Assembly (NCBI GenBank): GCA_018061755.1
Contig: JAGOTP010000010.1
Span: 1 to 39,671 of the forward strand
DNA length: 39,671 nucleotides
Source of the DNA: Patescibacteria group bacterium
GTDB taxonomy: Bacteria; Patescibacteriota; Patescibacteriia; 2-12-FULL-60-25
Direction: 5' to 3'
How positions within the stretch are numbered: position 1 is the first letter of the stretch; each line of letters starts with the position of its first letter. Shown piece by piece: positions 1,819 to 39,671 of this stretch. The notes under the pieces are model-generated. The model did not search any database, was not told where the DNA came from, and was given only the letters and a program-made list of their open reading frames with translations. Position numbers and translations under genes: made by a program.

Positions 1819-2118
1819 ATGATTGCTGTCATCAAAACCGGGGGAAAACAGTACCTCGTCCAAGAAGGCGACGTGATTTCCGTTGAAAAATTGGAAGTCG
1901 AACAGGGTAAGTCGCTCCAATTAGAGACCCTTTTGAAAGCCGAAGGCGACAAGCTTGAGCTTGGTACTCCAGCCTTGTCCGGCATGGTTTCGGCTGAAGT
2001 CGTGGCCCATGGTCGTGGCAAGAAGATCGAAATCGTGAAATACAAGGCCAAGTCTCGCTACACTCGCCGCACCGGACACCGTCAGGACTTCACTAAGATC
2101 AAGATTACAAAGATCTAG
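1819..2118 (+). CDS. rplU: 50S ribosomal protein L21
   Basis: Ribosomal protein L21, which binds 23S rRNA in the large subunit. The 99-residue protein starts MIAVIKTGGKQYLV and ends with the basic RRTGHRQDFTKIKITKI signature of the family, so it is full length. It is transcribed alone from a strong promoter at 1773 to a terminator at 2136. In most bacteria rplU is next to rpmA (L27), but here rpmA is about 11.5 kb away on the other strand. The two genes nevertheless end in terminators with the same 10-bp arms. There is no Shine-Dalgarno site ahead of the ATG. Confidence 0.97.
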   Translation: MIAVIKTGGKQYLVQEGDVISVEKLEVEQGKSLQLETLLKAEGDKLELGTPALSGMVSAEVVAHGRGKKIEIVKYKAKSRYTRRTGHRQDFTKIKITKI

Positions 2119-2135
2119 TCTTCAACAGAAACTGA

Positions 2136-2169
2136 AAAACACACCTTCCCGCATAGGAGGGTGTGTTTT
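2136..2169 (+). terminator. Rho-independent terminator of rplU
   Basis: AAAACACACC (2136-2145) pairs with GGTGTGTTTT (2160-2169), and the stem extends through 2149/2156 with a G-T pair. The A-run and T-run on either side would let it work in both directions. It therefore also closes the minus-strand gene region to its right. Confidence 0.85.
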
Positions 2170-2205
2170 CTTTCCTCCTGCTGATGATATGCCGTAGAAA
2201 CGATT

Positions 2206-2241
2206 GAACGGGGAGCCGCGAGCGTGCGCGACTCCCCGTTC
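2206..2241 (-). terminator. Hairpin terminator of the kynureninase-like gene
   Basis: GAACGGGGAG (2206-2215) pairs perfectly with CTCCCCGTTC (2232-2241), and the loop can itself pair CGCG with CGCG. It lies 15 bp past the stop at 2257 on the minus strand. The T-run after it is weak. Confidence 0.6.
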
Positions 2242-2256
2242 GGGAGGTGGGATCTG

Positions 2257-3330
2257 TCAGGGGAGGGGGACGAGCTTGCGGAAGATCGTCAGTGCTCTCT
2301 CGATGTCTTCGTCCGTCGTGTAGGGGGCGGGTCCGAAGCGCAGCCGCCTGCCGAGAGCGTCTACCCAGATGTCGTGCGTTCGAAGATGTCCGCAGATCCG
2401 CTCCGCATCCGCCAGTTCGATGACGAGGAAACTGCCTCGGCGCTCTGCTTCGCGCGGGGTGAGGAGCTTGTAGCCGTCGAGTCCGCTGAGCAGTACATCA
2501 GTCTGCCTGAGCGAGTTCGCTCTGAGTGTTGGGACGTCGAGCCCCAACTCGGCGAACTCTTGTGCGACCGCTCGGGCGCGGTAGTGCGCGGTTGGATCGT
2601 ACTTGAAGGGAGCTCCGCGATGCAGCATCCGTTCGTACTCGAAGCTGAACTGTCTCAGCTGGTAGGGGAGGCGCATCCAGCCCACGCCATCTCCCCACTG
2701 CGCGTGCCGTTCACCGCTGCCGAGCAGGAAAGCGGCGTGGTGGTCCCGGGCATTGAACGGGATGACATTGAAGTCATTCACCTCGATCAGGACGGCGGTC
2801 CCTTGTTTGTCGGCCGCTTCGACCAGTTTCTCGAGGTGGGGTACGAGTTCGCCGGTTCTTTCCAGCACCTGGCTGACCAGAACGCCACCGATGCCTGGGT
2901 GCATCTGACCGAGGAGTCGTTCGACGAGATCTTCCACCGGTCCCTCGTTCAGAACGTTTATACCGACGCGCCGGTTGCACAGTCTGGTCACGTTTCTGAA
3001 TCCACCGTCCTGCATCAGGATCGATGATCTGTCCTGTGGCAAATTCTGGAGGAAGAGTGCGAGCAGCGCGTCTTCGTTTTCGCCGAGAACGATGTCGTCC
3101 GGATCGCCTCCGCTCAGTCGCTCCGTGACCGCTGTCCGGACGGCTCCTGCGGCTGCAGTGATATCTAGACAGCGTTCACCCGGATGCTTGACCCAGTCGT
3201 GATGGGCCGCGACGATCCCTGCCATCGCCGCGTTCGGCGGAGCCTGGGAGACATGTCCGTTCAGAAGTATGACGTTGGCGGGCAGAGTGTACCTGTGACG
3301 GAGAAGTTCGGAGTTGAGTGGTGCGACCAT
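2257..3330 (-). CDS. Kynureninase-like protein lacking the PLP lysine (probable pseudoenzyme)
   Basis: The 357-residue protein follows kynureninase (class V aminotransferase fold) along its whole length. The N-terminal LPANVILLNGHVSQAPP matches the family's LP..viyLdGNSLG..P. VSQVLERTGEL lies in the middle, and TPREAERRGSF with LRFGPAPYTTDEDIERAL lie near the C-terminus. The family's active-site block G-C-x-Y-K-Y-L-N-G-G-P-G aligns with GSGERHAQWGDG (204-215), so the PLP-binding Lys is Arg208. The family's D-x-x-H that holds PLP reads E183-V-N-D186. By family knowledge this protein should not form the internal aldimine. A binding or regulatory role is inference. The gene is much more GC-rich than its neighbours and begins 40 bp behind the recR terminator with no clear promoter between. 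GAGAAAGAG is a weak ribosome site before the ATG. Confidence 0.75.
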   Translation of the reverse strand: MVAPLNSELLRHRYTLPANVILLNGHVSQAPPNAAMAGIVAAHHDWVKHPGERCLDITAAAGAVRTAVTERLSGGDPDDIVLGENEDALLALFLQNLPQDRSSILMQDGGFRNVTRLCNRRVGINVLNEGPVEDLVERLLGQMHPGIGGVLVSQVLERTGELVPHLEKLVEAADKQGTAVLIEVNDFNVIPFNARDHHAAFLLGSGERHAQWGDGVGWMRLPYQLRQFSFEYERMLHRGAPFKYDPTAHYRARAVAQEFAELGLDVPTLRANSLRQTDVLLSGLDGYKLLTPREAERRGSFLVIELADAERICGHLRTHDIWVDALGRRLRFGPAPYTTDEDIERALTIFRKLVPLP

Positions 3331-3369
3331 GGAAGTCTCTTTCTCGGTGAGGAGTTGAGGTTGCGCTGA

Positions 3370-3396
3370 AAAAGACCGCCGAAGTGCGGTCCTTTT
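3370..3396 (-). terminator. Terminator of recR (leader hairpin for the next gene)
   Basis: AAAAGACCGC (3370-3379) pairs with GCGGTC (3386-3391) and the T-run 3393-3396. On the minus strand the stem is followed by TTTTT. It lies 54 bp past the recR stop and 40 bp before the kynureninase-like start, so that gene would need read-through. A TTGACA-like box at 3445-3450 (minus) at the recR stop has no convincing -10. Confidence 0.75.
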
Positions 3397-3450
3397 CTAG
3401 TCTGGAATGTGCTAGGGGCTAGTGTCACGCAAACACTACTGCCCTGTCAA

Positions 3451-4056
3451 TCAGGACTCTTTCCGATTTTTCAAAGCATCGGCCACGGTTGTGGCGTCCG
3501 CATATTCGAGTGAAGCGCCAGTCGGCAGGCCACGAGCCAAACGAGTCAAACGAACTCCCAGGCCTTCTAAGCGTTTTCGTATATAAAGACAGGTGGTATC
3601 ACCTGGAATGTCGGTATCAAGCGCTAAAATGACTTCTGAAATGCGAGGTTCACTGTTGCGGATGCGCTCTAGCAAATATTCAATCGTCAGCGTGTCCGGC
3701 GTGCGACCCTCGATCGGATCGATCGTTCCACCTAAGACATGATACCGACCCTGAAAAATGCCCGTATCCTCAATTACACGAATATCAGGACTCATGGCTA
3801 CGACACAAACTGAAGCCGGATCACGCTTCGGATCACGACAGATACGACAAATCGCCTGATCCGTCCATTGATGACAGACGGAACAAGAGTGCAGATCTTT
3901 GCTCAAGCCCTCAATTGCGCGTGCAAACTGCTCAATCGCCTCGCGCGGCTGTGTCACGAGCCAATACGCATACCTCAACGCCGCCCTCGGCCCCACCCCA
4001 GGCAACCGATCAAACGCCGCCGCCGCTTGTTGAATGGGAAGAGGAAGAAGAGCCAC
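3451..4056 (-). CDS. recR: Recombination protein RecR
   Basis: RecR acts with RecO/RecF in loading RecA at single-stranded gaps. In the 201 residues I see the N-terminal helix-hairpin-helix (FDRLPGVGPRAALRYAYWL), a four-Cys zinc motif (CSVCHQWTDQAICRIC, about 58-73), a Toprim domain starting VCVVAMSPDIRVIED with the acidic LALDTDIPGDTT, and the C-terminal TRLARGLPTGASLEYAD. The length is normal. The start is GTG at 4056, preceded by a pyrimidine-rich stretch without a Shine-Dalgarno site. It lies downstream of ybaB as in many bacteria, but the two are separated here by a 175-bp gap that holds a large inverted repeat. Confidence 0.96.
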   Translation of the reverse strand: MALLPLPIQQAAAAFDRLPGVGPRAALRYAYWLVTQPREAIEQFARAIEGLSKDLHSCSVCHQWTDQAICRICRDPKRDPASVCVVAMSPDIRVIEDTGIFQGRYHVLGGTIDPIEGRTPDTLTIEYLLERIRNSEPRISEVILALDTDIPGDTTCLYIRKRLEGLGVRLTRLARGLPTGASLEYADATTVADALKNRKES

Positions 4057-10950: not shown

Positions 10951-12594
10951 ATGCCCAAACGCCATACCTATCTCTTCATTGTGGGAGGTGTCATGTCGGG
11001 AGTGGGGAAGGGGGTCTCGTCCGCTTCGATTGGAGCGCTCCTCAAAGCCAGAGGCTTAGGTGTGACAGCCGTCAAAATCGACCCGTATATCAACGTCGAT
11101 GCCGGTACCATGAACCCAGTCGAGCACGGCGAAGTCTTCGTTACCAAAGATGGCTACGAAACCGACCAAGACATCGGCAACTACGAACGGTTCTTGGATG
11201 AAGACATCACGAGCGCCAACTACATGACCACCGGCCGCGTCTATCAAGCCGTCATCGCTCGTGAACGCGCTCTGGGCTATGGCGGCAAGCAAGTTCAAGT
11301 TGTGCCACACGTTCCGCTCGAAGTCATCGCGCGTATCAAAAACGCAGCCAAACTCGCCAATGCCGATGTCACAATCATCGAGATCGGCGGCACGGTCGGG
11401 GAGTACGAGAATTTATTATTCCTCGAAGCCGCCCGCATGATGCGCATGGAAGCGCCGAGTGATGTTTTGGTTGGTCTCGTGAGTTACCTGCCTGTGCCCG
11501 GGAGTTTAGGGGAGATGAAAAGCAAACCGACGCAACTCGCCGTGCGTGCCATTCAGGCCACGGGTTTGCAGCCGGATTTCGTGATCGGCCGCTCTTCCTA
11601 CCCAATCGACGCTCCGCGCAAAGAAAAGATTGCTCTCTATTGCAACGTTCATCCCGACGACATTATCAGCGCTCCGGACGTTCCTTCGATTTATTCCGTG
11701 CCAGAAGCTTTCCATCTTGAGGGCTTGGACGAACGAATCGTGAAAAAGCTGAAGTTACGTACCAAGCAACCGGACATCACACCTTGGAAAAACTTGCTCA
11801 AACAACGTGATAGCGCCAAAAAAACGATCCGTATCGGAATCGTTGGCAAATATATTTCCACCGGCGACTTTCTGTTAACCGATGCGTATATCTCTGTCTT
11901 GGAAGCCCTCAAACATGCCGCTTGGTCATCTAATCTCAAGTTAGAGGTGGAATGGTTGAATCCAGAGTTATTCGAACAAGATCCGAAGCGTGTGGCGAAA
12001 GAGCTGAAGCGGGTGCAGGGCATCTTGGTGCCAGGTGGGTTCGGTTCGCGTGGCATCGAAGGCAAGCTCCTCGCCATTCGATACGCCCGTGAGCACAAGA
12101 TTCCGTATCTTGGCTTGTGCTATGGCCTACAGCTCGCCACGATTGAAATTGCGCGTCACGTCTTGGGCTACAAACGCGCCAACACAACTGAGATCGATCC
12201 AACGACGCCAGAACCTGTCATCCATCTCATCAATGAACAAGCCGAACGGATGAAAAACAAAGAATACGGGGGAACGATGCGGCTTGGAACGTATCCTTGT
12301 GTTCTGAAGAAAGGATCAGTGGCGCGCAAACTCTACGGTCAAGACATCATCGAAGAGCGGCATCGTCATCGTTATGAATGTAATCCGGCTTATCGTGCTG
12401 AATTGGAAAAGGTTGGTCTCATCGCGAGCGGTCTCTCACCGGACGGTACATTGGTTGAGGTCATCGAGCTCAAGAACCACCCGTTCTTTATGGCCTGTCA
12501 GTTTCATCCTGAATTTTTATCACGACCGTTCAGACCACATCCTTTGTTTAAGGGGTTTGTTGAAGCGGCGAATAAAAGAAACGTTATAAAGTAA
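10951..12594 (+). CDS. pyrG: CTP synthase
   Basis: PyrG makes CTP from UTP, ATP and glutamine. The N-terminal synthetase domain opens FIVGGVMSGVGKGVSSASIG with its P-loop. It continues with VDAGTMNPVEHGEVFVTKDG and EIGGTVGEYENL. The C-terminal glutamine amidotransferase domain has IPYLGLCYGLQLA with the nucleophile Cys (about 390) and CQFHPEF with the catalytic His and Glu. The length of 547 is normal. I chose the ATG at 10951 (MPKRHTYLFIVGG) because the family starts here and a TGC-TACCCT box sits just upstream. An upstream in-frame ATG at 10885 gives unrelated residues. A double hairpin follows the gene. Confidence 0.97.
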   Translation: MPKRHTYLFIVGGVMSGVGKGVSSASIGALLKARGLGVTAVKIDPYINVDAGTMNPVEHGEVFVTKDGYETDQDIGNYERFLDEDITSANYMTTGRVYQAVIARERALGYGGKQVQVVPHVPLEVIARIKNAAKLANADVTIIEIGGTVGEYENLLFLEAARMMRMEAPSDVLVGLVSYLPVPGSLGEMKSKPTQLAVRAIQATGLQPDFVIGRSSYPIDAPRKEKIALYCNVHPDDIISAPDVPSIYSVPEAFHLEGLDERIVKKLKLRTKQPDITPWKNLLKQRDSAKKTIRIGIVGKYISTGDFLLTDAYISVLEALKHAAWSSNLKLEVEWLNPELFEQDPKRVAKELKRVQGILVPGGFGSRGIEGKLLAIRYAREHKIPYLGLCYGLQLATIEIARHVLGYKRANTTEIDPTTPEPVIHLINEQAERMKNKEYGGTMRLGTYPCVLKKGSVARKLYGQDIIEERHRHRYECNPAYRAELEKVGLIASGLSPDGTLVEVIELKNHPFFMACQFHPEFLSRPFRPHPLFKGFVEAANKRNVIK

Positions 12595-12608
12595 TACAAC
12601 CTCTTTCT

Positions 12609-12665
12609 GAGCCCATGTGATCCTCAGAGAGAATCGAATGGGTTCAGCGGTGGTTGGGTCACCGC
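12609..12665. terminator. Two tandem hairpins after pyrG
   Basis: GAGCCCAT (12609-12616) pairs with ATGGGTTC (12638-12645), with an inner stem GATCCTC/GAGAATC. A second stem pairs GCGGTG (12647-12652) with CACCGC (12660-12665). Neither side has a good T-run, so these may end transcription only weakly from pyrG or from the convergent minus-strand gene. The rest of 12595-12746 shows nothing else. Confidence 0.45.
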
Positions 12666-12746
12666 AGAGGGAGGACTGGTGTGCCGTTTTCACGGGACCG
12701 AGAAGCGCGAGTCTATGCGCCACACCCAACGTGAAGAGTCTTGGAG

Positions 12747-13595
12747 CTACGGGAGGTACTTGGCGGCCCGTCTGAAGAGGCGCTCGAGTTTGATCCCGAG
12801 CGAACCGGGGGTTGGGTCTCCTTGTTCCCGCAGCCACTGGAGGAGATCGGGTTCGACCGTGAGACGGATGAGGTCATCTCGCATCTCTGTGAACGTCCGT
12901 CCGAGTCTCATGGCGGCTTGTACGCTCGGGAAGTCATCGACCTGTCTTCCGATGGTTCGAAGGCATTCCACGACGTGCTTCGAGAGCACCGTGCGTCGCT
13001 CGTCACTGGTGACGCTGCCTTCGACTGGGTCGAAAATCAGCCCCAACGAGTAACGCCCATTTGCCGATCCGTCCCACGCGACCCGGACCGGGAGAGTAAC
13101 GCTTGCCTGCTCGAGCTTGGCCAGCGCTGATACTACCGGCAGCAGGAGAGCGAGCAGCTGTTCTTCATAGCGCCAGTGTAGCTCGGGCCTATAGCTCTTG
13201 GCCCAGGCTGCTGCGCCAGGCATCCGCCACTCTTCGCAGGTCATCGCGTCTGGGCCTTCCATGACGTAGAGTGTCACGCCCTGGTGGTCGATCTTGTCAT
13301 AGACCGTTTGCACGGCGCTGTGACGCACCGCCCGCAGCTGTTCGATCTGCTCGAAGATCTGTCTCGTCTTCTCGTCCGCTGCCGGATCGAGAGTCATCAG
13401 GAGGACGAACCTTCCTTGCGTGGGGTCATGAGCGGCGTAGCCGGCGATGCTCATGGGCGTTTCGCCTGTCTTGCTCATGGGTACGAGGGGACTCACTAGT
13501 TCGTAGCGATCCACCCATGTACCTTGTTTCCAACTTGGGAGAATGGTGGCCTCTCTTTCCGCCCGTTGGTTTAAAGGGCAGAAAGTTAATAACAT
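12747..13595 (-). CDS. Pseudokinase-like protein (degenerate Ser/Thr kinase fold)
   Basis: The 282-residue protein shows the outline of a bacterial Hanks-type kinase. QGTWVDRYELVSPL resembles the start of the N-lobe. HDPTQGRFVLLMTLDP sits where the ATP-binding VAIK strand belongs. FEQIEQLRAVRHSAVQTVYD matches the helix-C and strand-4 region. HQGVTLYVMEGPDAMTCEEW matches strand 5 and the hinge. The VAIK Lys is Met, the HRD region reads around SVTLPVRV, and no DFG is seen (LIFDP). By family knowledge this should not phosphorylate. It has no membrane segment. The gene is GC-rich compared with rpmA and pyrG. Its ATG lies only 19 bp past the rpmA terminator, with AGAGAG as a weak ribosome site. 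A later ATG near 13479 would cut off the N-lobe start. Confidence 0.55.
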   Translation of the reverse strand: MLLTFCPLNQRAEREATILPSWKQGTWVDRYELVSPLVPMSKTGETPMSIAGYAAHDPTQGRFVLLMTLDPAADEKTRQIFEQIEQLRAVRHSAVQTVYDKIDHQGVTLYVMEGPDAMTCEEWRMPGAAAWAKSYRPELHWRYEEQLLALLLPVVSALAKLEQASVTLPVRVAWDGSANGRYSLGLIFDPVEGSVTSDERRTVLSKHVVECLRTIGRQVDDFPSVQAAMRLGRTFTEMRDDLIRLTVEPDLLQWLREQGDPTPGSLGIKLERLFRRAAKYLP

Positions 13596-30651: not shown

Positions 30652-31101
30652 ATGCCCGAACGATACGTCGTCCCACAATTCATCGACAACGAAGACAAGA
30701 TTCTCGGCCCGATCACGGTTCGCCAATTCTTGATTTTGCTTGTCTCGACGGTGTTGCTCTTCATCACCTACGCGATCTTCACCCTGCCTGTCTTCATCGT
30801 GATCGCGCTCTTCATCTGTGGAATTGCTGGAGCCTTTGGGTTCTTGAAGATTCACACCCAACCTTTCCATCTGTTTTTCTTGAACTTTTTAGCCTCGCGT
30901 TTGCGTCCACATTTGCGCGTGTGGGACAAGAATCTGACAGATGAGCAATTGCGTGTCTTCATGAATCTCGACACGGTCAAAGTCAGTGAAATCGAGGTCG
31001 ACGCCAAGAAACAGCGGCCAACGTCTTCCCGTTTACGTGACCTGACTCTGGTCGTAAATACGGGGGGAGTGTATAAACCAGATGATGATCCGTCCTTTTG
31101 A
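30652..31101 (+). CDS. PrgI-family protein (VirB3-like)
   Basis: The 149-residue protein opens YVVPQFIDNEDKILGPITVRQFLIL, then has two closely spaced helices (LILLVSTVLLFITYAIFTL and FIVIALFICGIAGAFGFL) and a cytosolic tail. This is the PrgI family layout, which takes the VirB3 place beside VirB4 in Gram-positive-type and Patescibacteria type IV systems. It follows the helical protein by 8 bp and precedes the TraC-like gene by 10 bp. Confidence 0.88.
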   Translation: MPERYVVPQFIDNEDKILGPITVRQFLILLVSTVLLFITYAIFTLPVFIVIALFICGIAGAFGFLKIHTQPFHLFFLNFLASRLRPHLRVWDKNLTDEQLRVFMNLDTVKVSEIEVDAKKQRPTSSRLRDLTLVVNTGGVYKPDDDPSF

Positions 31102-31111
31102 TCTTTGATGT

Positions 31112-31780
31112 ATGTCCAAAAACGTTTCCAAACCCGGCGTACCAACTCAGCGCTTCCTTGATGTCGCGGAAATCCGCGAAGATGTCGTCGTGCTGAAAGA
31201 CGGAACGCTGCGCGCGATTCTGCTTGTATCCAGCGTGAACTTTGCGTTGAAGTCGGTGGATGAACAGCAAGCCATCGTGCAGGCCTACATGCAGTTCGTG
31301 AACAGCATCGATTTCCCGATCCAGATCGTGATTCAGTCACGTCGCATGAATATCGATACCTACATTCGTCAGATCAACGAAACAGAAAAGAAGATCAATA
31401 ATGACCTGCTAAAGAAGCAAATAAAAGATTATCGCGACTTCATCCGTCAACTGGTAAAAATGGGAGATATCATGCAAAAGCGTTTCTATATTGCTGTCCC
31501 TTTGAATCCAGCGACCGTCCAGACCAAAGGCTTCTGGCAGCGTTTACAGGAGATCTTTACTCCTTCTTTAGCTTTCAAATTCTCGGAAGATCGATTCAAG
31601 AAACAAAAATTTGAATTGGAATTGCGTGTCAGCCAGATCTCGTCTGGTTTATCTTCGATGTCGCTCAGTGCTGTTCAACTCGATACGCAAAGTTTGATCG
31701 AACTCTTTTATAACGTGTACAACCCTGACTTGTACGAAGCGCAGCCCTTGGTGGACGTCGATCGTCTGCAAGTAGATTAG
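31112..31780 (+). CDS. TraC-like protein (VirB4 N-terminal-domain homologue)
   Basis: The 222-residue protein has the N-terminal domain features of VirB4/TraC ATPases without the ATPase: FLDVAEIREDVVVLKDGTLRAILLVSSVNFALKS, split here as an LKDGTLRAI strand and the FAL.S segment, then QIVIQSRRMNIDTYI and LSAVQLDTQSLIELFYNVYNP at the end. No Walker motif occurs. In Patescibacteria such a short TraC-like protein usually precedes a separate VirB4 ATPase. Here the ATPase gene is 6.3 kb away, behind the GC-rich island. The ATG at 31112 has no Shine-Dalgarno site, like the rest of the cluster. Confidence 0.8.
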   Translation: MSKNVSKPGVPTQRFLDVAEIREDVVVLKDGTLRAILLVSSVNFALKSVDEQQAIVQAYMQFVNSIDFPIQIVIQSRRMNIDTYIRQINETEKKINNDLLKKQIKDYRDFIRQLVKMGDIMQKRFYIAVPLNPATVQTKGFWQRLQEIFTPSLAFKFSEDRFKKQKFELELRVSQISSGLSSMSLSAVQLDTQSLIELFYNVYNPDLYEAQPLVDVDRLQVD

Positions 31781-31816
31781 GAAAAAATCGCAAACCAAAA
31801 AGTCATTTAAACGCAC

Positions 31817-31876
31817 AGCGACCCCGGCGAGAAGCATCATGGTTGTCACTACCATGAAGTCTCGCGCGGGGTCGTT
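31817..31876 (-). terminator. Terminator of the one-TM Cys-rich protein gene
   Basis: A long stem pairs 31817-31832 with 31860-31876 (AGCGACCCC against GGGGTCGTT, then CGAGA against TCTCG). It is capped by an inner stem CATGGT/ACCATG. It lies between the convergent TraC-like gene and the minus-strand gene that ends at 31881. The T-run is distal (CTTTTTGG on the minus strand). Confidence 0.65.
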
Positions 31877-31880
31877 GGGG

Positions 31881-33473
31881 TTAGGGGAAGGGTCGAAGGT
31901 TCGCGCGTCGGCGGGCGACGCTCGCGTTGGGGGTCCGGTGCTGCCTCGCCAGGCAGGTCGGATCGAGGGTGGGGCACTGCTGCGCAATCGTGCCGCACTC
32001 GTTGCGCATGTCCCGGTGGTCTTCGCGCAGGCACCGGAAGGCGACCGTCTCGTGGTCGCTGTAGGTGCAGACGCCGCTGTAGGGCGCCTGCCGCTCGTTG
32101 GTCATCTGGCCGTACTCCTCGGCCGTGATGCAGCGCGCGAGGTTGGGATCTCGCTGCTGCTGGGTGGTCGGGGAAGGTGCGGTGACGATGACCTGCGGTC
32201 GCTGCACCGGCTGCGCGTGTGGCGCGATGACGCGCTTGGTGGGGGGCACCGCACGCGGCATCTCGTGGCGCGGTTGCGCCGCGGCCACGAAGGTGGGCTG
32301 GGTGCCGGCCAGCTGCTCGCTGATCTTGACCCCCAGGGCAACCATGCAGACGAACATGACGAAGAACGCCGCCGCGATCATCGTCCAGTTGTACGGACGG
32401 ATGAGCTTGCTGGGAGGCGGCGTAGGCCGTTCGATCGCCAGCTTGTCCGTGGTGGGGCCCTGCGGCTGACCTTCCTCCGCAGGAGTTGCCTTGGCGAGCT
32501 GCGCCTTGAGGGGCTCTTCCTTCGCTTCGGCGGCGGGCTGGTCGTCCGGCGGGGTGGTGTCAGGCGCGCTCGGAGTGGGTTCGGGGGTGTGGGCCGGTTG
32601 CGCCGCGGTCGGCCGGGCGATGGGGGCTGCTACCTCGGCCGATTTGCTGAGTTCGGCCCTCCTCCTCGCCTGCGCCTCCGCCCAGCGTGCTGCCGCTGCT
32701 CCGCGCACCATCGCTTCTTCTGCGGGGGGCAGCCTCATGTTGTGTTCGCTCGGTTCGCCGGCGGCGGCCAGGAGCGCCACACGCTCCGCATCGGTGAGCG
32801 GGGGATCCTGGTCTTCCGCTGCCTCGGGCTGCAGATTCGGAGCCGGCGCGACGGGGGAGGGCCTCGTGGGCGCCTTGACGTAGTCGAGAGGGCCCTGGTC
32901 CTTCGTGAGGAGTCGATACTCCTTCGGCTCCGCCATGACCGCCGGCAGGTCGGCACCCTGCTCTTCGGGCGGACCCTGAGACTCGGTAGGGGCCGCGCCC
33001 GTCGGCAGTTCAGCCGTGACATTGCCGAACTCGTCGGGACCGTCAGACTGCGTGTCGTTGGCGCTGGCGCTGGGCCTGCGCTCGTGACCCACGAGGGTAC
33101 TCCTCAGTGAGTCAGGGGGATTACTCACCGTGCCGGGGGGGTGCGCCGTCGGCACGCGGTTGACCGTCGTCGTCATTCGCGACATTCGCGCGATGACATT
33201 GCTGTCGTGCGCCGCGTTCTCGACGGGCCGGGGCCCGAAGAAGCGGATGAACTCCAGCTCCTCACCGAGGTAGTGATCGTGCTTCTGATCCCAGTCCTCC
33301 TGCGCCTTTGCGACGCTGAGGTTGGGATGAAGGGGCCTGTGCCCCAGGGTCTGGATACAGGTCTCCAGATCGGTCATCGAGCGAAGCGCGGCCTTCCAGG
33401 CCTCGTCCCACTTCCTGACCCGCTCTGCCCAATCCTCGATGATCGGGTCTTCCGCTTCGTTCGGCTGTCCCAT
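31881..33473 (-). CDS. One-TM protein with Pro/Ala-rich cytoplasmic part and Cys-rich C-terminus
   Basis: I do not recognise the 530-residue protein. Residues 1-100 are charged and helical (EDWAERVRKWDEAWKAALRSM). Residues 100 to about 355 are low-complexity Pro, Ala, Glu and Thr, with helical segments rich in Ala and Arg. A single helix (MIAAAFFVMFVCMVALGV, about 362-380) follows. Residues 385-530 hold six cysteines (about 440-510) that could form three disulfides outside the membrane. The minus strand was chosen because this frame has the membrane helix and GAGGAG ten bases before the ATG, and a promoter at 33644-33672. The leader is about 160 nt. A host- or partner-facing surface protein is possible, as inference only. 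Confidence 0.65.
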   Translation of the reverse strand: MGQPNEAEDPIIEDWAERVRKWDEAWKAALRSMTDLETCIQTLGHRPLHPNLSVAKAQEDWDQKHDHYLGEELEFIRFFGPRPVENAAHDSNVIARMSRMTTTVNRVPTAHPPGTVSNPPDSLRSTLVGHERRPSASANDTQSDGPDEFGNVTAELPTGAAPTESQGPPEEQGADLPAVMAEPKEYRLLTKDQGPLDYVKAPTRPSPVAPAPNLQPEAAEDQDPPLTDAERVALLAAAGEPSEHNMRLPPAEEAMVRGAAAARWAEAQARRRAELSKSAEVAAPIARPTAAQPAHTPEPTPSAPDTTPPDDQPAAEAKEEPLKAQLAKATPAEEGQPQGPTTDKLAIERPTPPPSKLIRPYNWTMIAAAFFVMFVCMVALGVKISEQLAGTQPTFVAAAQPRHEMPRAVPPTKRVIAPHAQPVQRPQVIVTAPSPTTQQQRDPNLARCITAEEYGQMTNERQAPYSGVCTYSDHETVAFRCLREDHRDMRNECGTIAQQCPTLDPTCLARQHRTPNASVARRRANLRPFP

Positions 33474-33497
33474 TTCTGATGTTCTCCTCGAAAAACT

Positions 33498-33516
33498 CCC
33501 AGATGTTCAATCTGGG
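33498..33516 (-). promoter_or_regulatory. Leader hairpin next to the ribosome site
   Basis: CCCAGAT (33498-33504) pairs perfectly with ATCTGGG (33510-33516) directly upstream of the GAGGAG ribosome site of the minus-strand gene. A second stem, GGCGG with CCGCC, lies just beside it at about 33515-33536. Confidence 0.5.
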
Positions 33517-33643
33517 CGGGTTGATGTCGAACCGCCAGGTCGCCTGACCAAGCGGATAAAACTCGTGTTTTGAAAGCTGGTTCTTGAAACTCGCCACAAT
33601 CCCAGTTTTCACTGAGCAGGCCTGTTCCAGAACACAGCGTAGC

Positions 33644-33672
33644 TTTTTACCATGTTTTCCAAAAAAAGTCAA
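33644..33672 (-). promoter_or_regulatory. Promoter of the one-TM Cys-rich protein gene
   Basis: Minus strand: TTGACT (33667-33672), a 17-bp spacer, TAAAAA (33644-33649). It is divergent from the promoter at 33715, with 42 bp between their -35 boxes. The 413-bp gap 33474-33887 holds these two promoters, the leader hairpins and nothing else I can see. Confidence 0.6.
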
Positions 33673-33714
33673 TGAAAGCCGCTTTTCGCTAGTTGTGGAT
33701 AAAATCTGGGTAAC

Positions 33715-33743
33715 TTGACATTTTTGGCCAATAATACTATATT
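33715..33743 (+). promoter_or_regulatory. Promoter of the secreted Cys-repeat protein gene
   Basis: TTGACA (33715-33720), 17-bp spacer, TATATT (33738-33743). The leader is about 137 nt and ends in a hairpin (CCCC with GGGG, about 33850-33868) just before the ribosome site GAGAGG. Confidence 0.7.
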
Positions 33744-33887
33744 ACTTCCTTCTTTCGCCCTTTCGTTTGTTCGACAACGAGTCACAAGGGTGAACATTCG
33801 ACGATTTTTCAGTCCACCGTCAACCAACCACGTCCATGTTCGTAGTCTGCCCCGGCTCAGAGCTTGGGGTAGAGAGGAAAATTCATC

Positions 33888-34784
33888 GTGCACCACAACC
33901 TCGGAACCAAGTTGTACGCGCTCTCCCTCTGCCTGGCTGCGACTGTCGCGGCCAGCACCGCCTCTGCCCAGACCCAGGGAGAGCCGGATCCTCGCACGGT
34001 CGGGACCATCAACATGGCCCCGCCTCGCCTGGCGACGCTCGTCGTCACCGCGGCCAGCTGCCAGGCCAGGGGGCTGGTCTACCGACCCGCGTCCCTGGGC
34101 GTGCGGGCCGCCTGCATCGCGTCCGCTCCGTCCTCACTCGACGTCTGCAGCATCCCGGGCTTGACCCGGGGCAACCTCAACTGCCTCGCTCGCGAGGTCG
34201 CCAGCCTGCTTCCGACGCCGGCCACGACCGTCGTGGCCGCGCAGCAGCCCGTTCCGACGCTCCCTCGCACGGTCGTCGCGGCTGCGCCGGCCGTCGTCCG
34301 GCGACGTGTCCCCGCGCGTGTCCTGCCCGCCACCCCCGGGCGCTGCCAGGCCAGGGGGCTGAGCTACCGGCCCCCGGCTTCGCCGGGTGCGGCGCCCACC
34401 TGCATTCTCGCGACGGTCGCGGCCAACACTGCCAGCGAGACCTCGCGCAGCGCCGTCATCGCGGTCGCCACCGTCACCGACAGCGTCCGTGTGCTGACCG
34501 GCGATGTCCGGGCGCTCGAGCGGCGCTTCACGAATTTCGCGAGCGTGTCGTCGGCCCTGACGCGAGAGGCTGCGGCCTGCGAGGCCCACGAGTTCAACCC
34601 CGCGCATCGCATCAATCCGGCCTACAACTGCGCGACCATCGCCCGCCGGCTCCAGGACGCGCAGCGCTCTGCGACCGGCCAGCCGTCGGCCGCCACCGCA
34701 ACCGACGAGGCGCCCGCGCCCGACCCCTCGGCCGTCGCCACCGCGACGCCGACCCCCGCCCTCCCGACCGTCCCCACCCCCTGA
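33888..34784 (+). CDS. Secreted protein with repeated Cys-pair modules
   Basis: The 298-residue protein starts at GTG 33888, behind GAGAGG. A signal peptide (KLYALSLCLAATVAAS, cleaved after about ASA at 27) leads to an exported, probably free protein. The mature part has eight cysteines in four pairs. Two modules are clear repeats: CQARGLVYRPASLGVRAAC and CQARGLSYRPPASPGAAPTC. A looser third is CEAHEFNPAHRINPAYNC, and CSIPGLTRGNLNC forms the fourth pair. The first two share a 20-bp identical stretch of DNA. Linkers are Ala/Val/Thr/Pro-rich, and the tail after about 250 is Pro/Thr/Ala-rich. I know no family with this pattern. It ends at a strong terminator. Confidence 0.65.
   Translation: MHHNLGTKLYALSLCLAATVAASTASAQTQGEPDPRTVGTINMAPPRLATLVVTAASCQARGLVYRPASLGVRAACIASAPSSLDVCSIPGLTRGNLNCLAREVASLLPTPATTVVAAQQPVPTLPRTVVAAAPAVVRRRVPARVLPATPGRCQARGLSYRPPASPGAAPTCILATVAANTASETSRSAVIAVATVTDSVRVLTGDVRALERRFTNFASVSSALTREAAACEAHEFNPAHRINPAYNCATIARRLQDAQRSATGQPSAATATDEAPAPDPSAVATATPTPALPTVPTP
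34057..34361 (+). repeat. 20-bp exact direct repeat inside the Cys-module gene
   Basis: The 20 bases at 34057-34076 recur at 34342-34361, both encoding the start of a CQARGL module. This points to duplication of the module within the gene rather than chance. Confidence 0.75.
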
Positions 34785-34864
34785 CTCGTCTCGCAGCTCG
34801 ACCACCACACCAGGTCTATGACCCGGTCGCTGGTCTCTAGTCGACTGCACTCCCCCCCAACCAC

Positions 34865-34932
34865 ACAGCTTCGTCCGAACCGCTGGGATCCACTCCCGGC
34901 GCCGCTTCTCGGACGGAGCTGTCGTCGTTTTT
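34865..34932 (+). terminator. Strong terminator after the Cys-module gene
   Basis: A 14-bp stem pairs ACAGCTTCGTCCGA (34865-34878) with TCGGACGGAGCTGT (34909-34922), with one G-T pair. CGTCGTTTTT follows. This is the clearest intrinsic terminator in the island. Confidence 0.85.
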
Positions 34933-34964
34933 AGCGATAATCTAGAATAAAAAGACTCAGCTTA

Positions 34965-34993
34965 TTGACAAAAAACGAATAATTTGATATAAA
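34965..34993 (+). promoter_or_regulatory. Island promoter, copy 1
   Basis: TTGACA (34965-34970), 17-bp spacer, TATAAA (34988-34993). The 16 bases AATAATTTGATATAAA and a downstream GTTCTTT are shared with the promoter at 36608. A small GTGG/CCAC hairpin (34996-35009) lies at the expected transcript start. Confidence 0.75.
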
Positions 34994-35038
34994 ACGTGGT
35001 TCTTTCCACAACCTACTTCTTCATCATTCACTAGGTTG

Positions 35039-35126
35039 ACGCATCCAAGGTTTCAGTTGCTCAGCTGTTTGCAGAGAATATCTCGTATGTTCTTTGGAAA
35101 CAGCTGAGTAAACTGTCTGGATGCGT
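35039..35126 (+). promoter_or_regulatory. Structured 5' leader of the coiled-coil protein gene
   Basis: One long branched hairpin can form. ACGCATCCA (35039-35047) pairs with TGGATGCGT (35118-35126). CAGTT (35054-35058) pairs with AACTG (35111-35115). CTCAGCTGTTT (35060-35070) pairs with AAACAGCTGAG (35098-35108). An apical GAGA/TCTC stem lies at 35074-35084. All are perfect. It sits midway in a leader of about 196 nt, 71 bp before the GTG. No known riboswitch fits by eye. It could be an RNA sensor, a protein-binding leader or an mRNA stabiliser. Confidence 0.65.
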
Positions 35127-35196
35127 AGGGGCATGGTGCTTCTGCGCGTTCCACACGGTCGAATTTGTTTCTGAATCAGACCCACAGGAGAATGCC

Positions 35197-36459
35197 GTGA
35201 ACGCACCCGCAACCGATCCCCGGACCAAGACCACCGATCACGACCCCCACACCAGCCAGATCGTCTTCGACGAGAAGGGGGTCGAGAGCCCGCTCGACCT
35301 TCCCATGCTGGTTCCCGAACAGGGGGGCTGGCGCCAGCCGGGACACATCATCCCGGCGGGCTACGTCGTCGTCAGCGCCCAGCGGCGCGAGGCGCTCCTG
35401 ACGCAGAGCCTCCGGCGCACCGCCCGCGAGGCGAAGCTGCAGGACGACCTCGCCAAGGCCAACACCGACCTCGCAGACGCGCGGCGCGAGTACACCGAGC
35501 TCAAGGCCGCCTCCAAGCGCGCCTTCCGGCTGACGTTCGACTCGAGCTCGTGCATGCGCGACCCGATCAACGTCGGCGAGTGGGCGTACATGCGCGACGA
35601 GCGCTTCAGCCTCCTCGTGCGCACCTACACGCCGAACGGCAACCAGCTCCTCACCCCCTGCACGCTTCCCAGCGAGCACGGCGCGAGCATCGGCATCGGC
35701 GACATGGGCGACGACGGCTATGTGGTCGTCATCCGCCGTGGCGACCGTGTGCGCCCCCGCATCAAGGACGCCGAGGTCGGCTACTACGTCCTCGTCATGA
35801 GCCTCGACATCGAGTTCACCGAGGAGTTCTACACCGCCGCCGAGTTCGAAGCGATGCTCATGAGCTCGGACGGCTTCCAGACCGCCCCGGTCGCCCCCGG
35901 GCAGCGCATCAAGCTCCGCGGCTACCAGGGCGACGACCCCAAGCTGCTGCGCGAGCTGTTCGAGCGGGTCATCAGGGACAACTACGCCAACAGCTTCCGG
36001 CTGAAGACCGAGGCGGCCCAGCGCCAGCTCGAGTCCAGCGACCCCGTCGCCGGCGCCCTGCCCGCCGGTCCCCAGCAGCCCTCCGCCGCCGCGCCCGCGC
36101 GGTCGGAGGTCGACGTCAAGGATGTCAAGACCACCCCCATGACCGTCGCCAAGCCCGCGGCCGGGCCGGCCGGGCCCTCCCTGCCGCCGCCCGTCCCCGA
36201 GGTGGCGCGGCAGAGCGTCCGCCCCGACGCCCGTCCCTCGCGCGACGACGCCGGTTCCACCGGCCCCAAGGACGACACCGTGGGGGTGGACAAGGGCCTC
36301 GAGGGGAGCGGCAAGGCCGACCCGAAGGCCGACGGTGCCTCGCGCCCGACGCCCACCGGCAACGGCGGCATCAACGAGGAGCCCGTCGCCCTGGAGGACC
36401 TCGCCGCCCTCACCACCCAGGGCGCCCGCCCGCCCGCGCCCAACGCCCCGAGCGCGTGA
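35197..36459 (+). CDS. Coiled-coil, proline-rich cytoplasmic protein of unknown function
   Basis: The 420-residue protein starts at GTG 35197, seven bases after AGGAG. It has no signal peptide or membrane helix. Residues 62-110 form a likely coiled coil (REALLTQSLRRTAREAKLQD, then DDLAKANTDLADARREY). Residues 110-285 look like a folded domain with strands (FRLTFDSSSCMRDPINVGEW, GYYVLVMSLDIEFTEEFY). The rest is Pro/Ala/Gly-rich and disordered. I recognise no family. Third positions are almost all G or C. It has its own promoter, leader and terminator. The frame was preferred over an Arg-rich overlapping one because of the ribosome site and balanced composition. Confidence 0.65.
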   Translation: MNAPATDPRTKTTDHDPHTSQIVFDEKGVESPLDLPMLVPEQGGWRQPGHIIPAGYVVVSAQRREALLTQSLRRTAREAKLQDDLAKANTDLADARREYTELKAASKRAFRLTFDSSSCMRDPINVGEWAYMRDERFSLLVRTYTPNGNQLLTPCTLPSEHGASIGIGDMGDDGYVVVIRRGDRVRPRIKDAEVGYYVLVMSLDIEFTEEFYTAAEFEAMLMSSDGFQTAPVAPGQRIKLRGYQGDDPKLLRELFERVIRDNYANSFRLKTEAAQRQLESSDPVAGALPAGPQQPSAAAPARSEVDVKDVKTTPMTVAKPAAGPAGPSLPPPVPEVARQSVRPDARPSRDDAGSTGPKDDTVGVDKGLEGSGKADPKADGASRPTPTGNGGINEEPVALEDLAALTTQGARPPAPNAPSA

Positions 36460-36466
36460 TGAAGAA

Positions 36467-36565
36467 GTAGCCTCCGGCCACGCCTCCCTGGTGTGGCCAG
36501 CTACGCCGTCGATGAGATCGCCGCTGATTCTTCAGCAGCCTTCCTTCTCATCGGCGGCGTTCTCG
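36467..36565 (+). terminator. Double hairpin terminator, conserved element copy 1
   Basis: A first hairpin pairs GTAGC/GCTAC and GGCCAC/GTGGCC (36467-36504). A second, 14-bp stem pairs 36503-36516 with 36547-36560 (one G-T pair). The right end reads GGCGGCGTTCTCG (36553-36565) followed by TATT, a motif repeated after the next two genes. The 335-bp gap 36460-36794 also holds promoter copy 2 and a leader hairpin. Confidence 0.75.
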
Positions 36566-36607
36566 TATTCAAAAGAAAGAGGGAAGTTCGTTAAATGCTC
36601 AGTGAGC

Positions 36608-36636
36608 TTGACAAAAAGACAATAATTTGATATAAA
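36608..36636 (+). promoter_or_regulatory. Island promoter, copy 2
   Basis: TTGACA (36608-36613), 17-bp spacer, TATAAA (36631-36636). It differs from copy 1 (34965) at only three positions between -35 and -10, so both genes are probably expressed together. Confidence 0.75.
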
Positions 36637-36695
36637 GTGACGTTCTTTTCCATTTGAAACGCTATCCAGTATCCTGTGTTGTGCGCGTTTCGTTT

Positions 36696-36736
36696 GGCTG
36701 ATTTTCGAGATGAGTTCTTCGTCTCTGGAATCAGCC
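36696..36736 (+). promoter_or_regulatory. Leader hairpin of the two-TM protein gene
   Basis: GGCTGATT (36696-36703) pairs perfectly with AATCAGCC (36729-36736), with an inner GAGA/TCTC stem (36707-36710 with 36722-36725). The GAGA/TCTC tip recalls the leader at 35039. Confidence 0.5.
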
Positions 36737-36794
36737 GAGCGGCCGCGTAGCAAGCGCAACCCACCCTAGACCCGTTCGAGCTGGCGAGCCTCCG

Positions 36795-37550
36795 ATGACG
36801 TTCCAAAAGCGTACCCTCCTCGGCCTCATCATCTGCTCCCTCATCGGGAGCGCCGCCGGCATCGCCCTCGAGGCGGCCGGCGCGTCCATCCACTGGTGGG
36901 GGGTCACCCTCTTCACCAGCGCCTGCTGGCTCCTCCTCTGCCTGTTCGTCTACCTGAAGAAGCGCTGGGAGGACGTCCAGGCGGCCGAGGCCAAGCGCAA
37001 CGCGCCGCCCGCCGACGAGTTCATCCCGCGCGGCGTGCGCGAGACCCGCGACCCCGCCGACATCGAGAACCTCCCCGTCACCGACGAGGGGGGCAGGCGC
37101 CACGTCCCGGGCGCGACGCCCGTGACGGTCGTCGTCCACCCCAAGGGGCAGCCGGCCGCCGTCGCCCAGTTCGACCGCTTCGCCCCGGCGAGCTCGGACA
37201 GCGGCGACGCCGGGAACGCGCGCTTCTTCTTCGCGCAGATCGTCGTCCAGGTGCTCACGCGGCCCGGCGCCCCGAAGGACGGCTCGTTTCAGGCGCGCTT
37301 CGCCCTGGGCCAGACGATCCCGAAGGGCGCCCCGTCCAGGCGGTACGAGCCCGGCCACAAGGTCGACCTGGGCATCGACGTCGTCGACGTGTTCGTCTGC
37401 GCGGACTACGACAGCGGCCGCCGCTTGGCCCTCAAGCTGAACGGCGTGCGCGTGGCCGACGAGCCCACCCGGGAGGCGACGTCTGCGGCGCGTTTCGCGC
37501 TCGGTGGCGGCACCCCCGCCGCCAAGCCCGACGCCGCCGCGGGCAACTGA
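36795..37550 (+). CDS. Two-TM protein of unknown function
   Basis: The 251-residue protein has two N-terminal helices (LLGLIICSLIGSAAGIALEA and GVTLFTSACWLLLCLFVYL, about 8-52) followed by a basic stop (KKRW). A cytosolic domain of about 190 residues includes strands such as PVTVVVHPKG, ARFFFAQIVVQVLT and VVDVFVCADYD. I recognise no family. The ATG at 36795 lacks a clear ribosome site, the exception in the island. Codon third positions are almost all G or C. Long Arg-rich frames on both strands overlap it and were judged shadows because this frame has clean membrane helices. Confidence 0.6.
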   Translation: MTFQKRTLLGLIICSLIGSAAGIALEAAGASIHWWGVTLFTSACWLLLCLFVYLKKRWEDVQAAEAKRNAPPADEFIPRGVRETRDPADIENLPVTDEGGRRHVPGATPVTVVVHPKGQPAAVAQFDRFAPASSDSGDAGNARFFFAQIVVQVLTRPGAPKDGSFQARFALGQTIPKGAPSRRYEPGHKVDLGIDVVDVFVCADYDSGRRLALKLNGVRVADEPTREATSAARFALGGGTPAAKPDAAAGN

Positions 37551-37599
37551 GTCGGTGACAGGTGATGGGCAGCGTTTCAACAACTGCAGACTTTGCTTC

Positions 37600-37659
37600 A
37601 ACGCCGCCCACGAGACCCGCCGCAATCTGCGCGCCTCTCCTCGTGTGGCGGTGTTCTCG
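37600..37659 (+). terminator. Hairpin terminator, conserved element copy 2
   Basis: A 15-bp stem with one bulge pairs AACGCCGCCCACGAG (37600-37614) with 37640-37655. The right end reads GGCGGTGTTCTCG (37647-37659) then TTTC, the motif shared with 36553 and 38005. Confidence 0.75.
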
Positions 37660-37698
37660 TTTCAGGAGTAAGAAAAGAAATGGGGGAAGGAGGTTGAG

Positions 37699-37959
37699 AT
37701 GGCAAATGAGATCGCCTTTCTGCGAGATTGTCTGAAGGCAGCCTTGCTTACTACATCCTGCAACTGTCTCATGATTCTGGGTTGGATGTTGGTTACGTTC
37801 GATGATTATCTCGTCTGGGACTACATTAAGGAGTTTCAGAATTACTCACAGCTCTTTCTCGTGGCCTTTGGTCAGTTCTTTCTCTTTCTCATGATGCTGC
37901 GCGAGCAGTATTGGGTGGGACGTCTGCATCAACTGATTGAGGATCGTCCTAAAACATAA
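37699..37959 (+). CDS. Small membrane protein of the island
   Basis: The 86-residue protein has two helices (LTTSCNCLMILGWMLVTF and LFLVAFGQFFLFLMML) and a polar C-terminal tail ending EDRPKT. No family is recognised. Its ribosome site AAGGAGGT, five bases before the ATG, is the strongest in the window. Unlike the four genes before it, its base composition is close to the native genes. It has no promoter of its own, so it may depend on read-through of the terminator at 37600, and it ends 7 bp before terminator copy 3. Confidence 0.65.
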   Translation: MANEIAFLRDCLKAALLTTSCNCLMILGWMLVTFDDYLVWDYIKEFQNYSQLFLVAFGQFFLFLMMLREQYWVGRLHQLIEDRPKT

Positions 37960-37966
37960 CCGCCAT

Positions 37967-38020
37967 CGAGAATACCGCTGCCTATTAGCGGACCTGTTCT
38001 TGGTGGCGGTATTCTCGTTT
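37967..38020 (+). terminator. Hairpin terminator, conserved element copy 3
   Basis: CGAGAATACCGC (37967-37978) pairs perfectly with GCGGTATTCTCG (38006-38017), followed by TTTT. The right end GGCGGTATTCTCG (38005-38017) matches copies 1 and 2. An alternative CCGC/GCGG pairing (37975-37978 with 37988-37991) exists. Confidence 0.8.
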
Positions 38021-38035
38021 TAGAGATATGACGTG

Positions 38036-38044
38036 TGGTATACT
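38036..38044 (+). promoter_or_regulatory. Extended -10 of the VirB4 gene
   Basis: TGG-TATACT ends 13 bp before the VirB4 ATG at 38058, giving a leader of about 6 nt. It lets the ATPase be expressed despite the island and terminator upstream. Confidence 0.6.
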
Positions 38045-38057
38045 GGTTCCGTTACCT

Positions 38058-39671
38058 ATGTCCTTTGATACCGAGCCTCAGAAAAAGGCTGGTCCGGCTC
38101 TTGAGCTGACCAAACCGAAGTTAGAAAAAGGTCCTTCCAAGGCCGAATTGAAGCAGAAACAGATCGAAGAACACGCGGCGCTCGAAGACGAGCGCTTGTA
38201 CCGCAAAGGGGCCGCCGTCGTGAAGGATTTGATCGCGCCAGCTTCGATGCGGATCGAGCCATCCTTTGTGCGCTTGGGCGATATTTTCTGCCGTACGCTG
38301 TTCGTCGTGACCTATCCGCGTTACGTATCTGTTGGTTGGGCTTCGCCGGTTATCAACTTGAGTGCTCAGTTGGATATTTCGATGTTTTTCTACCCAATCA
38401 AATCGGATGTCATTTTGAAACAGTTGAAACGCAAGGTAGGTATTTTGGAGGCGCAGATTTTGTCCGACAACGAATCAGGCAAGCCACGCGATCCGATTAC
38501 AGAAACAGCCTTGCGTGACGTCGAGCAATTGCGTGATGATCTGACGCAGGGGATTGAGCACTTTTTTCAGTTTGCGTTCTATTGCACGTTCTATTCCAAA
38601 GACATGGATGAGTTGGAGCGTGTGACGACGCAAGTTGAAGGAACCTTCGCTTCGGCCTTGATTTATACGCGTCGTGCCTATTTCCAGTCCGAACAAGGCT
38701 TCAACTCGACGATGCCACTCTGCAATGATGAGCTGCAGATCACGTTCAACATGAGTACGTCGCCGATCGCGTCATCTTTTCCGTTCACATCAGCAGAACT
38801 CTCCAGTGACAACGGCATTTTGTACGGCATCAATCGGCATAATAATTCATTAATTTTGTTTGATCGCTTCTCGTTGCAGAACGCTAACGCCGTTATTTTT
38901 GCGACGTCGGGTGCAGGAAAGAGTTACGCCATCAAGCTTGAAATTGTTCGTTCGATGATGATGGGCGTTGATGTCATCGTCATCGACCCAGAGATGGAAT
39001 ATAAGCATCTGTCGGATGCCGTGGGCGGAACGTACATCAATATTTCATTATCATCCCGTTCCAAAATCAATCCGTTCGATTTGCCACGACCCAGCGGTGA
39101 AACGACCACGGCCGAAGATATTATTCGGAGTGCTGTCATCACAATCAAAGGTTTGTTGCGCTTGATGTTGGGCAAGCTCACGCCCCAAGAGGATTCCATT
39201 CTCGATCGTGCCTTGCTTGAAACGTATGCCAAGAAAGATATCGTGCCAGGCGCGGACCTGAGCAAGGTCGAACCGCCAATCATGCAAGATTTCCAGGATA
39301 TTCTAGAAGGCATGGAAGGTACGACTGATCTGATCGTCAAATTACGTAAGTTTACGGAAGGTACCTTTTCGGGTCTTTTGAATTCGCCAACAACGGTACA
39401 GATGAATAACCAGCTCGTGGTTTTCTCTGTGCGCGATCTAGAAGATGAACTGCGTCCAATGGCGATCTATACCATCGTGAACTACATCTGGAACGTGGTT
39501 CGTTCGGAACGCAAGAAGCGCATGCTTGTGATCGATGAAGCCTGGTGGTTGATGCAGTCTGAGGATTCGGCCAAGTTTATTTTTGCGCTCGTCAAACGTT
39601 GTCGCAAATACTATTTGGGCATCACGACCATCACGCAAGACGTGAATGACTTCTTAACTTCACCGTACGGC
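38058..39671 (+). CDS. VirB4-family conjugation/secretion ATPase (runs off the window)
   Basis: The first 538 residues are present and the gene continues past the right edge. VirB4 ATPases power assembly and substrate transfer in type IV systems at the inner membrane. Residues 1-60 are charged. Then come the VirB4 N-terminal region (GDIFCRTLFVVTYPRYVSVGW), the Walker A FATSGAGKSYAIK (about 282-294) and DVIVIDPEMEYKHL. The Walker B strand is RMLVIDEAWWLMQS (about 487-500) and GITTITQDVNDFL lies near the edge. I chose the ATG at 38058 because an extended -10 lies just upstream. It has no Shine-Dalgarno site. Its usual partner, the TraC-like gene, is 6.3 kb upstream. Confidence 0.93.
   Translation, partial: MSFDTEPQKKAGPALELTKPKLEKGPSKAELKQKQIEEHAALEDERLYRKGAAVVKDLIAPASMRIEPSFVRLGDIFCRTLFVVTYPRYVSVGWASPVINLSAQLDISMFFYPIKSDVILKQLKRKVGILEAQILSDNESGKPRDPITETALRDVEQLRDDLTQGIEHFFQFAFYCTFYSKDMDELERVTTQVEGTFASALIYTRRAYFQSEQGFNSTMPLCNDELQITFNMSTSPIASSFPFTSAELSSDNGILYGINRHNNSLILFDRFSLQNANAVIFATSGAGKSYAIKLEIVRSMMMGVDVIVIDPEMEYKHLSDAVGGTYINISLSSRSKINPFDLPRPSGETTTAEDIIRSAVITIKGLLRLMLGKLTPQEDSILDRALLETYAKKDIVPGADLSKVEPPIMQDFQDILEGMEGTTDLIVKLRKFTEGTFSGLLNSPTTVQMNNQLVVFSVRDLEDELRPMAIYTIVNYIWNVVRSERKKRMLVIDEAWWLMQSEDSAKFIFALVKRCRKYYLGITTITQDVNDFLTSPYG

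Follow-up and report, generated by a model that had tools for sequence, protein, structure and literature searches.

A type IV secretion system (T4SS) locus is interrupted here by more than 6 kb of unrelated genes, which raises the question of whether these genes belong to the secretion system or came to lie within it for other reasons. The window, meaning the whole stretch of DNA analyzed (39,671 nucleotides), is contig C9 (1–39671) of a 1.152-Mb genome in 37 contigs that is 93% complete. Comparison of VirB4 gave Candidatus Uhrbacteria as its relatives. The overall GC content of this Candidatus Uhrbacteria genome is 50.9%, and the tiny source bacterium is probably host-dependent. The initial annotation, made from the sequence alone, described a GC-rich five-gene island between PrgI and TraC-like genes ending at 31780 and a VirB4 gene starting at 38058, and proposed from its placement that it encodes cargo, a surface adaptor or a host-contact module. 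The coordinates hold, and the genes are arranged as follows:

30652–31101, + strand, PrgI/VirB3-like T4SS protein, left context (Pfam PF12666, 3.4e-10)
31112–31780, + strand, TraC-like T4SS protein bordering the insertion on the left (Pfam TraC_F_IV, 0.0019, below cut-off)
31881–33473, − strand, island gene 1, 530 aa, Pro/Ala-rich with one TM near residue 370 (GC 0.687, GC3 0.84)
33888–34784, + strand, island gene 2, 298 aa, signal peptide and Ala/Pro-rich tail (GC 0.741, GC3 0.89)
35197–36459, + strand, island gene 3, 420 aa, coiled coil (61–108), core domain and disordered tail (GC 0.721, GC3 0.95)
36795–37550, + strand, island gene 4, 251 aa, two N-terminal TM helices and a soluble domain (GC 0.729, GC3 0.97)
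37699–37959, + strand, island gene 5, 86-aa small membrane protein, not GC-rich (GC 0.456, GC3 0.56)
38058–39671, + strand, VirB4 ATPase, right border, running off the contig end (Pfam TraG P-loop, 4.1e-23)

The VirB4 ORF is cut off because the right end of the window is the contig end. Its start was set at 38058, and an ATG at 38028 represents an upstream extension within the likely promoter. Homologues of the TraC-like protein were present in 39 of 41 family genomes. A survey of Patescibacteria T4SS found VirB3/PrgI, VirB6 and VirB4 to be widely present, and ABY1-class T4SS loci to lie close to competence and recombination genes (PMC12102498). The distance from the TraC-like gene to virB4 was 6,278 bp here versus −43 to 455 bp in 108 related loci, a comparison in which some genomes are counted twice. 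Across these loci the distances indicate that TraC–VirB4 adjacency, as the initial annotation had described it, is the rule and that the insertion is lineage-specific among the sampled genomes. At the level of the assembly, the insertion between the two genes is confirmed.

The composition of the island was compared with that of normal genes in the genome, which have a mean GC3 of 0.508 (sd 0.062). By this measure the term GC-rich fits four of the five island genes (69–74% GC), so the description of a GC-rich island stands for genes 1 to 4 and fails for gene 5, while the intergenic DNA of the island has a near-native composition. The proteins themselves had been described broadly correctly, as two rich in cysteine pairs, a coiled-coil protein, a two-TM protein and a small membrane protein. 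The C-terminal tail of the 530-aa protein is Cys-rich, and the 298-aa protein carries a duplicated Cys motif, CQARGLxYRP, in addition to its signal peptide. No island protein had a Pfam match above cut-off, and PHROG and NCBIfam gave zero matches; likeness to known T4SS proteins was likewise absent at these thresholds in the three collections. Viral contigs, phages, plasmids and PDB held no relatives of the island proteins searched against them (for gene 3: viral contigs, phages and PDB), and a donor sequence was found for none of the five genes. Genes 1, 3 and 4 had no real homologue in 96 relatives, so a spread of the same genes through relatives was not seen for these three; the sole trace was a weak low-complexity match with stops in one genome (G024). 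Structure prediction was run for two of the five proteins, and AlphaFold models built without relatives reached mean pLDDT values of 37 (gene 3) and 44 (gene 4), which makes them uninformative. A composition-distinct insertion encoding, in part, membrane or secreted proteins without a known family is nevertheless supported.

Signals for transcription and its termination were predicted around the island genes:

31820–31874, strand not assigned, likely terminator, a GC-rich hairpin where the TraC-like and 530-aa genes converge (RNA fold z −5.1)
33714–33751, + strand, promoter of the type found at GC-rich genes, island gene 2, weaker match (PWM score 18.5–19.4)
34964–35001, + strand, strong promoter TTGACAAAAA..TTTGATATAAA-N5-GTT, island gene 3 (held-out PWM score 30.3–30.8)
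35040–35145, + strand, island gene 3, long hairpin in the leader (5' UTR) (RNA fold z −6.5, equaled by no shuffle)
36503–36560, + strand, terminator hairpin after island gene 3 (RNA fold z −4.9; shared 3' arm)
36607–36644, + strand, strong promoter, island gene 4 (held-out PWM score 28.8–29.1)
36675–36758, + strand, long leader hairpin, island gene 4 (RNA fold z −5.9)
37600–37655, + strand, terminator hairpin after island gene 4 (RNA fold z −3.4; shared 3' arm)
37959–38010, + strand, terminator hairpin after island gene 5 (RNA fold z −7.6; shared 3' arm)
38034–38044, + strand, candidate extended −10 TGTGGTATACT, putative start of virB4's own transcription after the insertion (from sequence; weak −35)

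The PWM was built from 11 promoters of GC-rich genes, none of them from the island, and it recovered the promoters at 34964 and 36607 and the weaker one at 33714 although these had been held out. The promoters of genes 3 and 4 are 83% identical over 41 bp. The shared 3' arm of the terminators, GGCGG[TC][AG]TTCTCGT, is found three times genome-wide, each time in an island terminator (genes 3, 4 and 5). Genes 3 and 4 are thus each predicted to have their own promoter and terminator, with a weaker predicted promoter for gene 2. The extended −10 at 38034–38044 may provide VirB4 with a transcription start of its own.

The whole genome was scanned for ORFs of the same kind, using a simple codon-position score whose gene calls are heuristic. 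Fifty ORFs had GC > 0.60 together with GC3 > 0.74, and 13 further ORFs joined the set on account of a preceding promoter. The resulting set of about 63 ORFs forms about 53 clusters on 20 contigs and makes up 4.0% of the genome; the island in the T4SS locus is the largest of these clusters. Mean GC around these ORFs was 0.43–0.44 at 50–150 bp upstream, 0.65–0.68 inside and 0.46–0.50 beyond 100 bp downstream of the stops, whereas normal genes kept to 0.46–0.51 throughout. We infer that the GC-rich DNA is confined to reading frames. A second insertion was found at C35:24715–25206, where 726 bp separate the flanking genes, versus 134 bp in G002, a genome from another genus of the family. At least two clusters consequently lie between genes that are adjacent in relatives, a moron-like behavior in a cellular chromosome. 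Two further stretches of the window, 2001–3500 and 12501–13500, are mildly GC-rich (0.58–0.60) and hold ORFs at 2257–3330 and 12747–13595, both on the − strand.

The promoter consensus consists of TTGACAAAA, a TATnnT box about 17 bp further on, 5 bp, and then GTT or GTC. PWM scores above 20 were reached at 42 sites in the genome versus none in shuffles. With the PWM training genes and the 13 promoter-selected ORFs left out of the GC-rich count, a promoter stood at most 480 bp upstream of 13 of 39 GC-rich genes versus 18 of 877 normal genes (Fisher p = 2e-11). Of the GC-rich ORFs, only about half stand behind a recognized promoter, and some ordinary genes are served by the type too, for example a cold-shock-like gene. 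In G002, GC3-rich ORFs stood behind the same promoter type in five of seven cases, and in several relatives the promoter was also seen upstream of GC3-rich ORFs, lipoproteins included. The strict pattern occurred in 40 of 41 family genomes and, in the class sample, in 121 of 144; on this class-wide occurrence we rejected the proposal that only GC-rich genes, or only this family, have the promoter. The idea that it marks rRNA operons was rejected as well, as there was no rRNA in the searched loci; sites once read as rRNA-operon promoters precede GC-rich ORFs. Across the class (loci L240–L281), the promoter has an AT-rich spacer ending in TGTGn before TATnnT and a fixed start motif.

Leaders, taken from the predicted transcription start to the ORF, had a mean fold z of −3.0, with 55% below −2.5 (n = 29). 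In windows of an equal 110 nt, the promoter sites of this genome gave a mean z of −1.9 (39% below −2.5), those of family relatives −1.2 and those of other families −2.1, against −0.7 (8% below −2.5) for control intergenic windows. The leader hairpins are long and imperfect, lack an evident common sequence and lie just downstream of the strong promoter; examples are C18:7287–7404, C36:46137–46284 and window positions 35020–35150, and, in relatives, loci L249, L255 and L275.

The predicted products of the GC-rich ORFs also differ from those of normal genes. A lipobox was present in 13 of 63 GC-rich proteins (20.6%) versus 18 of 877 normal proteins (2.1%), a ten-fold difference (p = 1e-8), and their mean cysteine content is twice that of normal proteins. 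This enrichment in secretion signals makes a role in host contact plausible. In a 368-kb sample of unmasked sequence from G002, rather than its whole genome, a match was found for 3 of 63 GC-rich versus 206 of 835 normal proteins. Since even a family member of another genus matches so few of them, the GC-rich gene set seems to turn over quickly.

We examined which organisms could have supplied these genes. Two GC-rich proteins outside the island matched the cysteine-rich MXAN_6577-like family (NCBIfam NF041328) at 95.4 and 43.7 bits, below the cut-off of 100. NF041328 was found in 6 of 380 Patescibacteria genomes, four of the six in this taxonomic family, and Stig1 domains were found in 11 of 41 family genomes. 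The lipoprotein linker style of the GC-rich proteins is a further feature that we take to hint at Myxococcota. Another myxobacteria-named repeat, TIGR02232, was rejected as a marker of Myxococcota, being widespread (58 of 380 Patescibacteria). Given that spread, a Myxococcota origin remains a lead; Myxococcota as donors or hosts are suggested by these matches but unproven. Our literature search returned no paper tying Uhrbacteria to Myxococcota. The M20 peptidase at C28:13189 was compared with plasmids only, and its twelve best matches, 31–47% identical, came from Gammaproteobacteria, Burkholderiales and Actinomycetota, a scatter over three groups that allows no donor call. Two other occurrences of such repeats and genes were observed. 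One other Patescibacteria family, f113 (G227, G295, G453 and others), has very many myxo_disulf_rpt repeats, often at least 18 matches per genome. In G002, contig C2 (525,788 bp; L212) carries MXAN_6577-like genes mirrored about 11 kb from both ends, and its start is GC-rich including the spacers, possibly a duplicated element.

The reading we favor, with fair but not high confidence, is that four GC-rich stand-alone genes and one small membrane gene of native composition make up the island, as a lineage-specific cluster of moron-like units that are quickly replaced and whose location is incidental. A typical unit would consist of a strong consensus promoter, a leader that often forms a long hairpin, a GC-rich ORF without a known family and a hairpin terminator. 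The GC-rich ORFs would derive from GC-rich organisms and be replaced fast, and many of their products would be highly expressed surface or secreted proteins that mediate contact with a host or prey. The position in the T4SS locus would be one of about 53 landing places, with virB4 transcribed from its own promoter after the insertion.

Ordinary horizontal transfer of a GC-rich segment, a genomic island received from a host or neighbor and later trimmed, would also explain the composition, the sporadic distribution and the missing homologues in relatives, but we consider it unlikely. Spacers and third codon positions are expected to drift at similar rates, yet the step in GC is found at the ORFs only: spacers and leaders are native while GC3 stays at 0.84–0.97, which a transferred block that has ameliorated does not fit. 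Nor do the borders support such a transfer, as the island ORFs include no integrase, the window has no tRNA, and the border stretches share no 7-mer or longer, hence no direct repeat of at least 7 bp.

A functional tie to the secretion system, in which cargo, adaptors or a host-contact module were acquired into the operon, appears quite unlikely. The insertion does lie exactly between two T4SS genes, several products are membrane or secreted proteins, and T4SS genes are cited in the Patescibacteria survey as essential to the epibiotic growth of Ca. Southlakia epibionticum (PMC12102498). The step from placement to cargo or adaptor was not borne out, however, as about 53 clusters of the same kind lie at unrelated places in the genome. 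With so many clusters and about 930 genes, it is unsurprising that one falls into one of the few T4SS junctions (the rough expectation is 0.2), and the T4SS location is probably incidental. Several units moreover have their own predicted promoter and terminator, and gene 1 runs antisense to the operon. A signal peptide, as on gene 2, usually marks Sec export rather than T4SS delivery.

That native genes turned GC-rich in place, for example through selection for high expression or for translation in another cell, is improbable. The promoter type is native and strong, and one GC-rich gene, the lipoprotein at C12:19070–19906, has a domain that recurs in about ten paralogues of normal GC elsewhere in this genome, so not all GC-rich members need be foreign. 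EF-G (GC3 0.56) and RpoB (0.60) are nevertheless not GC-rich, both being expected to be highly expressed; the predicted transcribed leaders are not GC-rich either, and GC1 and GC2 are raised as well. An assembly chimera, to which the truncation of virB4 by the contig end might point, is hardly credible, since spacers, promoters and leaders are like those elsewhere in the genome, and the pattern recurs on 20 contigs, between native genes, as well as in another genus.

Beyond the favored reading of moron-like units, we tentatively raise a wider possibility: that Uhrbacteria and related ABY1-type Patescibacteria keep 50–60 rapidly replaced, host-derived (possibly Myxococcota) genes for secreted or surface proteins, each brought in as a single ORF behind a strong promoter and a structured leader common to the set. 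If this were true, the host-derived genes would amount to a dedicated record from which the hosts could be read, and would imply an unusual, ORF-precise process of gene capture. To our knowledge, the host is unknown for most Patescibacteria, and GC-rich units captured from hosts would indicate both those hosts and the contact proteins. The confinement of the GC step to ORFs also poses a question of mechanism, namely how single frames come to lie, without their flanks, under a native promoter. The location of such islands in a T4SS locus is, as a caution, a poor guide to their function.

Several known systems can be compared with this arrangement. As in the Patescibacteria T4SS locus (PMC12102498), PrgI/VirB3, VirB6-like, TraC-like and VirB4 genes lie in one cluster, but the TraC–VirB4 junction is interrupted here. 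A study of aquifer Patescibacteria ascribed as much as 13% of genome length to horizontal gene transfer; its named donors do not include Myxococcota, a term that does not occur in it (PMC12455944). The island genes resemble those genomic islands in being lineage-specific and off-composition, and differ from them in that the GC rise is restricted to ORFs and comes without an integrase or flanking repeats. The MXAN_6577-like (NF041328) and Stig1 families were matched, below cut-off, by two other GC-rich proteins and by no island protein. An integron gene cassette was rejected as a model: the integrase match is Xer-like, only Xer-like recombinases below the TIGR02249 cut-off being present in the genome. 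Judged by eye, the hairpins seem to be without RYYYAAC/GTTRRRY attC boxes. In temperate phages, morons are stand-alone genes of deviating composition that sit between adjacent phage genes and carry a promoter and terminator of their own. The island units are similar in their predicted own promoters and terminators, in their differing composition (GC3 0.84–0.97 versus 0.51), in their insertion between genes that are adjacent in relatives and in products that lack a known family or are surface-related. Unlike phage morons, they have no prophage around them, the T4SS operon lying on both sides with no PHROG match, and they are chromosomal units at about 53 places that have a common promoter type and structured leaders.
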